Below are positions 5,331 to 38,248 of a stretch of 38,248 nt of DNA, piece by piece. Position numbers and translations under genes: made by a program. The notes beneath the pieces were generated by a model. That model did no database searches and had not been told where the DNA came from. It was given only the letters and a program-made list of their open reading frames with translations. Each line of letters opens with the position of its first letter. The stretch's first letter is position 1. Origin of the DNA: a virus. Location: IMG/VR virus record IMGVR_UViG_3300042923_001762, positions 1-38,248 of that record, one strand, 5' to 3'.

Positions 5331-7691
5331 TCACCCTCTCTTATTTTTAAAATTAATGTATACTGTTCTTATACCAATATCATTACAAGCTATAAATAAA
5401 TTGCCGTTGATATCTCCAATAGCCCAAGATTTTATTGTACCCGAAGGATCACTAAAAATGGGCATTTCGATTTTGCATACTGGATCAGTAGCAACAAAAA
5501 ATTCACCCGAAGAAGAGATCCCTTTAGCTTTTTTATTTTCAAACAGCCCGTATTTTTCGGTACTGTAATATATCTTTAAATCTTTATAATCGGTGTTATA
5601 GTAGACCAGTCTATTTTTGTGTAGCATTTCGCTACCAATAACAAAAGTATTTTCTAATCCTTTTTTAGTCACGATCTGCAATTGATATGTCATCTTAAGT
5701 ACTTCTGCTGGGTCCTTAATTAGCTTAAAGTCAGGGGTACTTATTAACACATCTTGCAAATAACTGGGATCCACTTGCGGAAGATTCTTAGCAAATATAA
5801 TTTGTGATGCTATATCATCCCCCGGTGTAGCAGCACTAGCTAAATCAAAGCTAAAGGTATCAAGCGTTCCATCTGGATTAGCGTATCGGATATACTGGTT
5901 TACATTATCAGTATCTTGCTTTACAACCTGATCACCAGCATTTACATTATCATTAAATCCAAACGTAAATATTAAGCTATTACCACTTGCCACCGAATTA
6001 CAGGTTACTAATAAATTTCCCGGCTTAAATAACGTAACACCTATAGGAAATACGAAGGATTGTCTAATAAAGGTTTGCATAAAGTGCGATTGACCTACAA
6101 ATGTAACAAAACTACTATTTACTTCGCTTATATCTGATAGTTCTACGTATTCACTGTAGCGTTCATGTCGTTCAAGTGTAAATCCATCACTAGGAATGTT
6201 ATACTGTCTAATTTCACTATTGATTCCAACATAATCTGATATCTTATTGTAATTTCTAGACGCCACAGCGCTTGAAATAATAAAATCATTATAAATTTGA
6301 TTCTTAGCTACCGTAATAATATAATTATCTGCAGTGTATTGACCTTTTCTAAAGCATTCTCCAACCGTTTTAACGTATTTGGATATTTCTATGTCCCCAT
6401 TCGATAAACGATTAATCTGGCCATATAGATTGTCACCGAAGGCACCTAAATCAACTATCCGTTCTTGCTGATTAGAATAGAGTATGCTATCGATATTCAC
6501 ATCGATTAGACTTGCTCTTTCAATTTGTATTCTTGTGTCAAATATCGGAATATAACTAATATTAAATAGAATATCTTCGTAATTCGGGATGGTAACAGGA
6601 TAAGCTGTACCGAAAATATCAAATATCATTTTGGAAAAAATTGTAATAATGACCTCAGTGTTAAAAAAGCCATAGGTCTCACCGAATCCGTATATTTTTG
6701 TTCCCTGATAATCGTAGCGTAAAGCAGCTCTCTTAGTACCTAGTACTGCAGTGATATCCGCTGATCCAATTGGAAGAGAAGCCCAAGCTGAAGACTCATA
6801 AATGTAAGGAGTTAGGTCACTATAAATCTCAAATGGAGTTTCGTTAGATCCATATAAAATTTTAGCCCTTATTGTTACATTTTTAATTTTGTACATCGAA
6901 TAGGGGACTTTGAACATCATATTTGCTGACGTTAATCTTAATTCGTCACTTCTTACGCTCGCAAAGCTTAAAGCTGTTGGGTAATTTATAGTTGATTGAT
7001 TTACATTGCTTTCCGATATTTGATTATCGATATAACTTTCTAATTTTGTTGCATAATACTCTATACTTTGACTTTGCTTGAAGTCAGTAATATTATTTAA
7101 ATTAATTAAATCGGTAAGATCGTTATAAAAGTCTGCTGAGAGTGTATTATTCTTAAGTCTAGGTGCAGCTTTAAGATATTTCAACTCTTGTATTAGCGCT
7201 CCTAATGCTGTTGGCCGACTAATAAAAAATTGAGGTGCTTTATATTGTTTGGCTTTATCAAGCAAGCCCTCATCAATTGTAAACAATCTAGTTGAGGCGT
7301 GATTAATCACTGTTTCAAAAGGGATAACATCTTTAGTCCTACTTAATACATCTTCCATAGTGTATCTAACACCACCTACAGGCTGTGTAAATGTTATGGA
7401 TGCACCAGTTTGACGTTCTAGTCTTTTAGTAGGTTCGATGAGCATTATTGTATGTTGGTACAACAAGGGTGACTTACTTATAATCTGTGAATCATCTGAT
7501 GAAACAACAAAGTGCAATGTTTCCGCATCTCTAGTTATAAATACATCAGCAAATTGAGGATATTGTTCTTTTCTTGTTGTTGCAACTTGAATCAATAAAC
7601 CTGAATCTAATTCTTCATCGATTCTTTCAATTATTGTTAGCCCTTGTTTTATTTGGCCAACTGTTTGACCTTTAATAGTAATTGTAATCAT
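5331..7691 (-). CDS. Large tail/baseplate hub protein
   Basis: A 786-residue protein between the short connector/tail genes and the spike. Position, length and an N-terminal region rich in beta-strand (around residues 1-160, containing TMEDVLSRTKDVIPFE) suggest a baseplate hub or tail-associated structural protein of the gp27/Prophage_tail type. No peptidase or lysozyme motif was seen, so a wall-degrading tail tip is not supported. Its ATG overlaps the TGA of the upstream 148-residue gene (ATGA), implying translational coupling. A segment near residues 625-632 (YANPDGT) repeats a phrase found at the N-terminus of the downstream spike (residues 7-13), perhaps reflecting related baseplate-binding strands. 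The family assignment is inferred from context and not from a recognised full domain. Confidence 0.6.
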   Translation of the reverse strand: MITITIKGQTVGQIKQGLTIIERIDEELDSGLLIQVATTRKEQYPQFADVFITRDAETLHFVVSSDDSQIISKSPLLYQHTIMLIEPTKRLERQTGASITFTQPVGGVRYTMEDVLSRTKDVIPFETVINHASTRLFTIDEGLLDKAKQYKAPQFFISRPTALGALIQELKYLKAAPRLKNNTLSADFYNDLTDLINLNNITDFKQSQSIEYYATKLESYIDNQISESNVNQSTINYPTALSFASVRSDELRLTSANMMFKVPYSMYKIKNVTIRAKILYGSNETPFEIYSDLTPYIYESSAWASLPIGSADITAVLGTKRAALRYDYQGTKIYGFGETYGFFNTEVIITIFSKMIFDIFGTAYPVTIPNYEDILFNISYIPIFDTRIQIERASLIDVNIDSILYSNQQERIVDLGAFGDNLYGQINRLSNGDIEISKYVKTVGECFRKGQYTADNYIITVAKNQIYNDFIISSAVASRNYNKISDYVGINSEIRQYNIPSDGFTLERHERYSEYVELSDISEVNSSFVTFVGQSHFMQTFIRQSFVFPIGVTLFKPGNLLVTCNSVASGNSLIFTFGFNDNVNAGDQVVKQDTDNVNQYIRYANPDGTLDTFSFDLASAATPGDDIASQIIFAKNLPQVDPSYLQDVLISTPDFKLIKDPAEVLKMTYQLQIVTKKGLENTFVIGSEMLHKNRLVYYNTDYKDLKIYYSTEKYGLFENKKAKGISSSGEFFVATDPVCKIEMPIFSDPSGTIKSWAIGDINGNLFIACNDIGIRTVYINFKNKRG

Positions 7692-35352: not shown

Positions 35353-35589
35353 ATGCAAAAAATATGTAAACACTGTAAATCCACAGTAACTGTGGAAAAA
35401 GTACAAGGAGAGGTATATTGTAAATATTGTGGGTCACCAATTTTTAATTATTGCTCAAATGAACAGTCTTGTGGGGTAGAACTAGATGATGATGCAGCTT
35501 ATTGCACAAAATGCGGTAGCAGATCAATTTTTTTAAATTCAGATTTGGTAGTCTCTAAGCATAAAGTAGATAAGGAATATCCTTTTTAA
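35353..35589 (+). CDS. Double zinc-ribbon protein coupled to DUF3800
   Basis: A 78-residue protein with two zinc ribbons: Cys5, 8, 23, 26 and Cys34, 40, 51, 54 (motifs CKHC, CKYC, CTKCG). An AAGGAG site lies ten bases upstream. Its TAA overlaps the ATG of the DUF3800 gene (TAATG), so the two are translated together and probably work together. Zinc ribbons of this type bind nucleic acid or protein. Partner in the DUF3800/RNA element proposed here. Confidence 0.75.
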   Translation: MQKICKHCKSTVTVEKVQGEVYCKYCGSPIFNYCSNEQSCGVELDDDAAYCTKCGSRSIFLNSDLVVSKHKVDKEYPF

Positions 35590-36395
35590 TGTATCTATTA
35601 TATATCGATGATTCGGGTTCGATTGATAAAAAGGATGATCCAAAACCACAAGGTGATGAAAATGGTAATTCCCTTTATTTTGTATTAGCAGGAGTATTAA
35701 TTGATGCGAGTAAAGTTAATACAATAGAGAAAAAGCTATTTTCTCTCAAATCTGAATGCCTTTGTGATAAATATGATGAAATCAAGTTTTCTAAAAAGGT
35801 TACGAATGTATTTAAATGCGTAAACAACAAATCCTGTTGTAATGGCGAACCAACAATTATTTTAAATACGAATAATGATATATGTATAGGTAATATTAAG
35901 AAATGTTATAGGCAACGCTTTATTTCTGGGTGTCAAACAATTGATGCTAATTGTTTTAGCGTATTTACTAATAAATTCGAATTTTACAAACACAGTCCGC
36001 ATGTAACTCCCGGTGAACTTTATGAAGAATGTTTTAAACGATTGATCTCATTAGTTTTTAACTATCTTAAAAACAAAAACATTAATAAACCTATAGTAAT
36101 TTTTATTGATAATACTGATAAGACAAAAAATAATAGAACATATAAATCCTATGAAAAAATAATAAGAGAACCTGATCTAAACATTTTTACCGCACCAAAT
36201 ATCCTACCATTGAGCCTTAACATCTGCAATTCATACTACACCTTAGGTATACAAATAGCAGATTTACTTGCTGGTTCTATTGCGCATGCATATGAAAAAA
36301 AAGACTATTTATATTCTAATTTTTGGAAGGATAAGTTTATCCAAGAAAACAAAGAATATTTTGGTTATAGTCTCTTCAATGTTAGAAATTTATAG
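35589..36395 (+). CDS. DUF3800 protein
   Basis: A 268-residue member of the DUF3800 family. Diagnostic motifs are YIDDSGS (5-11), LYFVLAGVLID (29-39), IVIFIDNTD (169-177) and IQIADLLAGSIAHA (221-234). The conserved acidic residues Asp7/Asp8, Asp174 and Asp225 suggest a metal-dependent RNase H-like active site, but no activity is established for the family. Residues 57-122 are unusually cysteine-rich (nine Cys). Members are common in phages and mobile elements, and several are found next to structured RNAs. Translationally coupled to the zinc-ribbon gene; the RNA at 36396-36471 converges on its stop. Confidence 0.88.
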   Translation: MYLLYIDDSGSIDKKDDPKPQGDENGNSLYFVLAGVLIDASKVNTIEKKLFSLKSECLCDKYDEIKFSKKVTNVFKCVNNKSCCNGEPTIILNTNNDICIGNIKKCYRQRFISGCQTIDANCFSVFTNKFEFYKHSPHVTPGELYEECFKRLISLVFNYLKNKNINKPIVIFIDNTDKTKNNRTYKSYEKIIREPDLNIFTAPNILPLSLNICNSYYTLGIQIADLLAGSIAHAYEKKDYLYSNFWKDKFIQENKEYFGYSLFNVRNL

Positions 36396-36471
36396 AAAAA
36401 AATAAACGGCAGAGCGAGAACGAATTCCCCATAGGCTGCCAAACGGCAACGACCTCTGCCAATAATATTAT
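36396..36471 (-). ncRNA. Three-way-junction small RNA beside DUF3800
   Basis: Read on the minus strand, the RNA folds as a closed three-way junction. P1 is GGCAGAG (36460-36454) with CUCUGCC (36414-36408). P2 is GUUGCC-GUUU-GGCAGC (36450-36435). P3 is GGGAA-UUCG-UUCUC (36429-36416), a UUCG loop. Both P2 and P3 contain a G-U pair that would be an A-C mismatch on the plus strand, so the minus strand is the functional one. A run of seven U follows P1, and a TTGACA promoter lies upstream. Structured RNAs near DUF3800 genes were described computationally (the DUF3800 motifs); whether this belongs to one needs a covariance search. Confidence 0.7.
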
Positions 36472-36477
36472 ATCCAT

Positions 36478-36506
36478 ATCTTACACAAAAGATACAAAAA
36501 TGTCAA
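36478..36506 (-). promoter_or_regulatory. Promoter of the DUF3800-linked RNA
   Basis: On the minus strand TTGACA (36506-36501), 17 bases, TAAGAT (36483-36478). Transcription would start near 36471, 11 bases before P1 of the RNA. The spacer contains TTTGTATC, one arm of the inverted repeat at 36487-36532. Confidence 0.62.
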
Positions 36507-36540
36507 CTTTTAATATTGAATTTGTATCTTTTTTTTATTT
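36487..36540. repeat. 12-bp inverted repeat around the RNA promoter
   Basis: AAAAGATACAAA (36487-36498) and TTTGTATCTTTT (36521-36532) are perfectly complementary around a 22-base loop that contains the RNA's -35 element. On the plus strand the right arm runs into eight T, so it may also end DUF3800 transcripts. A regulator binding both arms would cover the RNA promoter. Confidence 0.6.
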
Positions 36541-36657: not shown

Positions 36658-37116
36658 ATGGAATATATACCAACAGCATTAGAATTATATATTTCTAATT
36701 TACTCATTGGAAAGGGGATCCAGTGTATATGGGATCTCAACATCGATTCGTTAGCAACAGCGTTTAACATCCGGATTAAATATTATCCTGGTGAAACAGC
36801 GCTAATCAAAAAGGGAAAAAGGATATATGTGTTTGTTAATAAGACTTTATCAGAACAGGAACAGTATGAAGAATTTCTTCACGAATTAACACATCAGATT
36901 ATGGAGCATTGTAGTGTTTTACATCTCGATGTTAACCAGTGGCACCATATTGAACTAAAAACCGACCACTTAATGCAATATGTTGCAATACCTTACTTTT
37001 TATTAGATACTTTGACAAAGTTAGAAACTGTTGAAGCTGCGTCTGAATACTTTTACATCTCGCGAAGTTTAGCCTGGAAGAGAATGGAAAATATTAAAGA
37101 TAGAATAAATAAGTAA
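36658..37116 (+). CDS. ImmA/IrrE-type metallopeptidase
   Basis: A 152-residue protease of the ImmA/IrrE (DUF955) family, with the zinc motif HELTH (75-79) and a following helix. Such proteins cleave the cognate Xre-type repressor to trigger induction, so the partner here should be the repressor at 32990. The two are usually adjacent; here 3.3 kb of cargo separates them. C-terminal HTH-like segment near 128-145 (AASEYFYISRSLAWKRME). A strong ribosome site precedes it. Confidence 0.82.
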   Translation: MEYIPTALELYISNLLIGKGIQCIWDLNIDSLATAFNIRIKYYPGETALIKKGKRIYVFVNKTLSEQEQYEEFLHELTHQIMEHCSVLHLDVNQWHHIELKTDHLMQYVAIPYFLLDTLTKLETVEAASEYFYISRSLAWKRMENIKDRINK

Positions 37117-37156: not shown

Positions 37157-38248
37157 ATGCCTGTTTACAAAGATAAGAAACGTGGTACCTGGTACTATCA
37201 AATCAATTATAAAGATATCCAAGGCGAGTATCGACAAAAGCGGCAATCTGGATTTGCTACTAGGAAAGAAGCACAGAACCAGGAATACTTGGCTGGATTA
37301 GAGCTTAATCGTACACCTAATCAATCCGATATTAGTTTTGAGGACCTTTATAATTATTATTTCTCATACATTGAGGGTGAGATCAAATACACTAGTTGGT
37401 ATTCTAAAAAAAACTTAGGAGATCTACACATACTACCCTATTTCATAGGTAAGAGGGCCAATCAAATATCTACTAATGATATTATCGCTTGGAAAAAAAT
37501 TATTGTATCCAAAGGATTTGCTTATGAGTATTTATCTAAAATATACACTAATCTATCCAGTATATTTAGTTATGGGATAAAGCATCATGGGTTAAAAGAT
37601 AATCCGTGCAGATTAGTAGGTAATTTTAAAAATCCAGAAGAACTAGAAGAAGAATTGCAATACTGGACACACGATGAATTTAAAGAATTTATTTCTAAAA
37701 TAACTAACGATCTGGTTTACCTTGTTTTTTTTTCATTTTTATATTTTATGGGGACACGTAAAGGAGAAGCAATGGCTCTATCATGGAAAGATATTAACTT
37801 TGATAATCACACCGTTAGCATTGCAAAGACAGTCGCTGAGAAATCTAAAGAAGGTGGATGGAAGATAACACCACCTAAAACTAAAAGTTCAATTAGGCGC
37901 ATTCTAATGCCAAAAGAGCTTGAACGCATGCTGAAGATATATTATGAATACTGCAAACAATTTGAGGACTTCAGTGATGATTCATTTGTATTTGGTATTT
38001 ATAGGCCACTAGCCACAACTACGATCCAACGAACTTTCGATAAATACCTGGCGTTAACCAATCTTAAGAAAATAAAAATCCATGATCTAAGACATAGTCA
38101 TGCTTCACTATTAATAAATCTTGGTGCTAACGTTCTGATCGTATCAAAACGCTTAGGCCATAAAGATGTTAATGAAACTTTAAATACTTACTCGCATATG
38201 TTCCCAAACAAAGAAAAAGAGGTCGTCGATTTAATCGACAACCTCTAA
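37157..38248 (+). CDS. int: Tyrosine integrase
   Basis: A 363-residue phage integrase. The N-terminal arm-binding domain (about 1-50, starting PVYKDKKRGTWYYQINYKD) is followed by a SAM-like core-binding domain (about 60-155) and the catalytic domain (170-363). The active site is complete: Arg201 (TRKGEA), Lys near 241-243, His309-x-x-Arg312 (HDLRH), His335 (LGHKD), Tyr345 (NTYSH). An AAGGAGG site gives the start. The gene ends at the last base of the window, so the attachment site probably lies just beyond. Confidence 0.95.
   Translation: MPVYKDKKRGTWYYQINYKDIQGEYRQKRQSGFATRKEAQNQEYLAGLELNRTPNQSDISFEDLYNYYFSYIEGEIKYTSWYSKKNLGDLHILPYFIGKRANQISTNDIIAWKKIIVSKGFAYEYLSKIYTNLSSIFSYGIKHHGLKDNPCRLVGNFKNPEELEEELQYWTHDEFKEFISKITNDLVYLVFFSFLYFMGTRKGEAMALSWKDINFDNHTVSIAKTVAEKSKEGGWKITPPKTKSSIRRILMPKELERMLKIYYEYCKQFEDFSDDSFVFGIYRPLATTTIQRTFDKYLALTNLKKIKIHDLRHSHASLLINLGANVLIVSKRLGHKDVNETLNTYSHMFPNKEKEVVDLIDNL
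38218..38246. terminator. Hairpin overlapping the integrase stop
   Basis: Thirteen-base arms (38218-38230 and 38234-38246) with one mismatch surround a TTA loop, in the last codons of the integrase. A T-run, if present, would lie outside the window. It could be a terminator or part of an attachment-site region. Confidence 0.5.

Follow-up and report, generated by a model that had tools for sequence, protein, structure and literature searches.

A convergent branched RNA gene abutting a viral DUF3800 gene recurs in distant relatives and probably forms a protein-RNA system with it

Genes and features at the locus

We analysed a stretch of DNA of 38,248 nucleotides, here called the window, which comes from an IMG/VR virus record (IMGVR_UViG_3300042923_001762, positions 1 to 38,248). 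In it, a DUF3800 gene faces a small RNA gene carried by the opposite strand. The features of the region are listed below.

35353-35589, plus strand: double zinc-ribbon protein, 78 aa (PF12773)
35589-36395, plus strand: DUF3800 protein, 268 aa, predicted RNase H2-like nuclease (PF12686, AlphaFold2 model, conserved residues), with acidic residues D7, D8, E64, D174 and D225
36396-36402, minus strand: run of seven U (sequence), likely an intrinsic terminator together with helix P1
36396-36471, minus strand: predicted transcript of about 76 nt, inferred from the promoter and U-run positions without expression data
36408-36460, minus strand: three-way-junction RNA core (fold; relatives share this topology at the equivalent position)
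36460-36454 with 36414-36408, minus strand: P1, 7 bp (fold)
36450-36445 with 36440-36435, minus strand: P2, 6 bp (fold)
36429-36425 with 36420-36416, minus strand: P3, 5 bp, UUCG loop (fold)
36478-36506, minus strand: promoter TTGACA-17-TAAGAT (sequence; TTGACA 36506-36501, TAAGAT 36483-36478, spacer 17), with a mostly perfect equivalent in all relatives
36488-36532, plus strand: putative terminator hairpin, 12-bp stem and T-run, overlapping the RNA promoter
36658-37116, plus strand: neighbouring ImmA-type metalloprotease, outside the unit (phrog_87, E 2.7e-9)
37157-38248, plus strand: neighbouring tyrosine integrase, context only (tblastn matches to phage integrases)

The DUF3800 protein matches PF12686 with 61.1 bits against a cut-off of 21 (E 2.7e-16), and no sequence relative was found in the PDB. 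Its AlphaFold2 model, made from seven sequences (pLDDT 71.6, pTM 0.77), has an RNase H-like fold whose closest structures are RNase HII (Z 11.5 over 169 residues) and human RNase H2 (Z 10.7), with PIWI domains ranking after them at Z about 10. At the level of the model, the protein fits the RNase HII/H2 branch of this fold, which agrees with the RNase H fold already reported for DUF3800 (PMC10910872, PMC12669027). Residues D7, D/E8, E64, K66, Q222 and D225 are conserved in the DUF3800 group, as is D174 except in L041, which has N at this position. The DE-x-G start is similar to the RNase HII motif. Nuclease activity is a prediction, and catalysis is inferred.

The zinc-ribbon stop codon overlaps the DUF3800 start codon in the window. 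Each of the 11 prophage/Bacilli-clade loci has a double zinc-ribbon gene (78-97 aa) immediately before DUF3800, and in 10 of these the stop codon of the first gene overlaps the start codon of the second; the two genes are translationally coupled in the prophage clade. The earlier note on this DNA had described a unit made of DUF3800 and the RNA; both parts stand, but the zinc-ribbon gene, which belongs to the unit, had been missed. Its placement of the unit between the repressor and the ImmA-type protease is correct, since the order repressor, zinc ribbon, DUF3800, RNA, ImmA-like protease is found in the window, L009 and L086. Most phage loci have the unit between the repressor and the integrase/recombinase, and the remaining neighbours vary. 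The units of 12 bacterial loci (L048-L059, called group A below) consist of a lone DUF3800 gene and the RNA at varied chromosomal places, several of them near tRNA genes. Segments resembling the zinc ribbon of the window were also seen in other phages (L088, L089, L091-L096), fused to the C-terminus of an ImmA-type protease.

Fold and promoter of the window RNA

Sequence and fold reproduced the coordinates and strand of the RNA, helices P1 to P3, the U7 run and the TTGACA-17-TAAGAT promoter as they had been described earlier. The RNA start was inferred 7 nt past the -10 box and its end was set at the U-run, which directly abuts the DUF3800 stop codon (36393-36395). A 17-nt stretch separates TAAGAT from the closed three-helix junction. 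Because the UUCG loop of P3 is closed by an A-U pair, it is not the extra-stable cUUCGg form. Two G-U pairs, one in P2 and one in P3, had been said to fix the functional strand. These pairs and the fold energies (-22.1 kcal/mol for the minus strand vs -14.2 for the plus strand) favour the minus strand.

Taken alone, the window gives suggestive but modest evidence for an RNA gene. The fold has a z of -2.6, 13 of 1000 dinucleotide shuffles being equally stable, and a junction closed by at least 6 bp appeared in 9 of 1000 shuffles. The window promoter by itself is weak evidence and within chance: its -10 box matches at 4 of 6 positions, and a promoter scan of this AT-rich region returned 20 sites vs 15.5 expected. 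The significance of the RNA gene comes from its relatives. On the other strand, we infer that the DUF3800 mRNA could cross the complement of the RNA up to the terminator at 36488-36532.

The convergent promoter recurs in distant relatives

To find relatives, DUF3800 alignment scans and a scan with the zinc-ribbon protein were used; on viral contigs these did better than a scan with the single DUF3800 protein, which returned nothing. Counting each genome once, 23 distinct loci were obtained (the window, L002, L003, L005-L010, L041, L086 and L048-L059). The DUF3800 proteins are distant from that of the window (about 22-35% identical) and come from Streptococcus phages Clyde and Javan291, IMG/VR, reference genomes, sampled Bacilli (one Bacilli chromosome) and one order of small-genome Clostridia-like bacteria. 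No group A member was found in the viral contigs scanned, and no further member in the order or family of L041. A nucleotide search of phages and plasmids with the window RNA gave chance fragments only.

All 23 loci carry a sigma-70-type promoter and a branched RNA, convergent with DUF3800 and abutting its stop codon, the RNAs being about 53-90 nt long with a U-rich end. At 22/22 scored DUF3800 3' ends, and at 8/79 other gene ends from the same loci, an antisense promoter with no more than 2 mismatched positions out of 12 lay within 220 nt (p = 6e-16); 19 of the 22 had no mismatch. This p value is overstated, given that the loci are related and do not count independently; the set of controls is also small. 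The 23rd locus, found later, also has an antisense promoter.

Several further observations were made at these loci. In L006, a stop at 2152 interrupts the DUF3800 frame (2039-2819) in its first part, the rest being open from 2136, and the RNA is intact. In the streptococcal prophage L004, a sub-threshold match to Spy779816, an S. pyogenes sRNA, lies just upstream of the RNA promoter (5615-5701, minus strand; 51.4 bits, gathering threshold 67), with weaker matches in L002 and L003. An OLE RNA (343 bits) was detected close to the DUF3800 unit in L059 (624-1218, minus strand).

The RNA structure is supported by covariation

The group A RNAs were studied with RNAalifold on a plain MAFFT alignment. 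They form a three-way junction with a P1 of 8 bp, a P2 of 5 bp and a P3 of 7 bp, in which 240/240 cells are paired, 9 of the 20 pairs are changed on both sides and no pair is broken. None of 500 shuffles reached these pairing and covariation values, and pairing dropped to 28-47% when the partners were slid. The RNAs of L006, L009 and L086 have the group A topology with an additional bulge on the 3' side of P1, and have the core GUAG(C/U)A...GU(G/A)UGU in common with group A. When the two clades were aligned jointly (ten sequences), 98.9% of cells were paired and seven of nine pairs were doubly changed, namely the six outer pairs of P1 and one pair of P2; again, 0/500 shuffles matched the paired cells or the covariation score. 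The covariation in P1-P3 that the earlier note had asked for is thus present among relatives, the window RNA itself being without a close one.

The other RNA types are less alike. In the six Streptococcus RNAs, P1 is 9 bp long with a bulge, and there are three hairpins rather than two, one of them with compensated changes. The L041 and window RNAs show P1 plus two hairpins, and that of L041 is not unusually stable on its own (z -1.2). Overall, the RNA type tracks the DUF3800 protein clade. The group A covariance model placed its hit on the window RNA where expected, but as one of 22 matches and without significance (10 bits, E 8.7 in 71 kb). For this reason, it is location, strand and topology that underlie the inference of common descent between the window RNA and group A. 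Aligning the window RNA with the other types by sequence alone left the helices unaligned and was rejected, so that this comparison too rests on topology. We do not claim a single RNA family by sequence across all types.

The RNA is found without the protein but not the reverse

The RNA model was used to scan 287 genomes of one order and gave 25 matches in 23 of them. All 12 genomes with a group A DUF3800 carry the RNA, and no DUF3800 without the RNA was seen in these 287 genomes. In 11 genomes, the RNA has no intact DUF3800 beside it, one of these being at a contig edge and one retaining a DUF3800 remnant of 67 aa; most of these RNAs are decayed. A fully paired RNA is nevertheless kept in L067, L070 and L074. 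In L070, just the final codons of DUF3800 are left next to an intact RNA and promoter, and in L067 (1501-1582, minus strand) an intact group A RNA lies directly after a tRNA gene with neither DUF3800 nor promoter. Two contigs carry two RNA copies on the same strand 2-3 kb apart (L075/L083 and L074/L084), the second copies being degraded in promoter or structure. Finding the RNA without the protein and never the reverse fits a protein that needs the RNA, as inhibitor or as subunit; every model that makes the protein dependent on the RNA can accommodate survival of the RNA alone.

Interpretation

Altogether, these results establish an RNA gene architecture, a conserved structure, a strict association with DUF3800 and the presence of the unit at unrelated genomic sites. 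Since the face-to-face pair was found again at 22 further loci, viral and bacterial, it is probably a genuine protein-RNA system, which may act in phage defence. A protein-RNA accessory system had been raised as a possibility from the window alone; the covariation in relatives and the conserved promoter, junction and strand now support it.

The explanation we prefer, on which we are evenly divided between belief and doubt, is an accessory module for phage defence or superinfection control, whose RNA binds the DUF3800 protein and probably keeps it in check; binding, toxicity, inhibition and defence are all inferred. The compact module would consist of the zinc-ribbon gene, the DUF3800 gene and the convergent RNA gene with its own promoter. 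In the lysogen, the closed branched-junction RNA would bind the RNase H2-like nuclease and keep it inactive. Phage infection would disturb transcription or the RNA, and the freed nuclease could then attack nucleic acid, leading to abortive infection or superinfection control, with the zinc-ribbon protein possibly adding nucleic-acid or protein contacts. We counted in favour of this module its position between repressor and integrase at most phage loci, the RNase H2-like fold, the conserved acidic residues and a weak match to the PADLOC candidate PDC-M04A. Against it stand the 10 bits of the window RNA, the three hairpins in Streptococcus, the N174 and z of -1.2 in L041, the weakness of that PADLOC match and the lack of data on expression, binding, toxicity or defence. 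That the RNA is an antitoxin is inferred by analogy.

Alternatively, DUF3800 could be a ribonucleoprotein nuclease that cannot work without the RNA, which would then be an active subunit serving as scaffold or activator. The RNase H-like/PIWI-like fold, the fact that DUF3800 was never seen without the RNA and the DUF3800 protein that accompanies some Cas12a2 loci (PMC10910872) speak for this reading, which we hold to be unlikely though worth keeping in mind. There is no evidence of activation, and the group A RNA has a conserved 5' leader (CAGA..A.AA) followed by a base-paired remainder with no spacer-like stretch, which makes a guide role unlikely. Inhibition was ranked somewhat above obligate activation because the RNA has a strong promoter of its own at most loci, because of the location in prophages and because AbiF/RCd22, described below, sets a precedent. 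An inhibitory effect could also be exerted on the mRNA, if the RNA were a cis-antisense regulator that pairs with the 3' part of the DUF3800 transcript and lowers its level. At every locus the two genes converge and overlap at the stop codon, which suits this idea, as does, in the window only, the plus-strand terminator past the RNA gene, which makes full-length complementarity possible; yet antisense action does not need the compensatory changes in P1-P3, and we regard it as improbable.

Two further readings have little left to support them. The RNA sequence might act as DNA, marking the end or the insertion site of a mobile element that carries DUF3800, as the tRNA genes near several group A units and the paired RNA copies in two genomes could suggest. 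We think this very improbable, given a conserved promoter, strand-specific pairing and the decay of the second copies and of most orphan RNAs. The last, that no more than a terminator for both directions separates the convergent genes and that the promoter is fortuitous, draws on the terminator-like P1 and U-run and on a window promoter not above chance. It is already contradicted, and scarcely tenable, since the promoter is found at 22/22 scored loci vs 8/79 controls and the branched fold and its covariation go beyond a hairpin. The plain terminator hairpin that the earlier note named as its own refutation is likewise excluded by the conservation of promoter, junction and strand in relatives.

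Beyond the preferred inhibitory module, we entertain as a doubtful but far-reaching possibility a minimal ribonucleoprotein nuclease, in which an RNase H2/PIWI-like DUF3800 would strictly require its face-to-face three-way-junction RNA within a three-part cassette, zinc ribbon included, moved by prophages. If true, an RNA-requiring DUF3800 would be a new kind of minimal ribonucleoprotein nuclease. The pair is small and has clear boundaries, its RNA types follow the protein clades and it is present in cultured phage genomes, and the role of DUF3800 RNAs thereby becomes directly testable with two small genes.

Comparison with known systems

That structured RNAs without a known role adjoin DUF3800 genes has long been recognised, and DUF3800-linked RNAs as such are already represented in Rfam. 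Kinship with these families, which the earlier note had thought worth checking, was not borne out: the window RNA matches none of them, even at E 10, nor any other Rfam 15 family, and no family of Rfam 15 matches the convergent RNAs of the relatives (E 0.5-1); all these RNAs add to the DUF3800 RNAs absent from Rfam. DUF3800-I (RF02969) and DUF3800-VIII (RF03075) are likewise structured RNAs of unknown role beside DUF3800 genes. In the sampled loci, however, the former lies downstream and the latter upstream of DUF3800, both on its strand, whereas the window RNA is convergent. One DUF3800-VIII RNA (55 bits) was found in L041 (2790-2855, minus strand), about 240 nt upstream of the zinc-ribbon gene, whose strand it shares, so that L041 may have two distinct RNAs linked to DUF3800. 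In L042, L043 and L045, which belong to another DUF3800 clade, an RNA of about 50 nt lies just downstream on the same strand, with a varying closing stem and the core GUUGU.GUUC.GUCC.GGAGC.GC (two tandem copies in L042); it has no match in Rfam. Judged against Rfam 15 and the open literature that was searched, DUF3800 RNA motifs outside Rfam not being covered, the convergent RNAs, the zinc-ribbon partner and the setting in the prophage lysogeny region are new.

Among candidate defence systems, the PDC-M04A profile of PADLOC matches the DUF3800 protein weakly (E 2.4e-7, 28 bits). No PDC-M04B-type match was found among the neighbours scanned, and we found no report of an experimental test of the PDC-M04 candidate in the literature. 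The group A RNA lacks the variable guide-like segment of OMEGA-like ribonucleoproteins; the window RNA has no close relatives for this comparison.

In type III toxin-antitoxin systems (ToxIN, CptIN, TenpIN), an RNA holds a nuclease inactive, as we propose for the DUF3800 unit. By definition, their antitoxin RNA consists of tandem repeats upstream of the toxin and is co-transcribed with it (PMC12373285). The window RNA has no tandem repeats and is neither upstream of DUF3800 nor co-transcribed with it, and the protein has another fold than these toxins; a single, convergent RNA with a separate promoter rules out a type III system in the strict sense. The unit may still work like one, through RNA inhibition by direct binding, for which there are no binding data. 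A precedent is AbiF/RCd22 of a C. difficile prophage, where the RNA binds the toxic protein directly and thereby neutralises it (PMC12373285). AbiF is an Abi_2, Cas13-like protein unrelated to DUF3800, and RCd22 lies upstream of AbiF and has two repeated motifs, whereas the window RNA is one convergent unit with its own promoter; the two systems are alike in that a prophage encodes a protein together with its own non-coding RNA.
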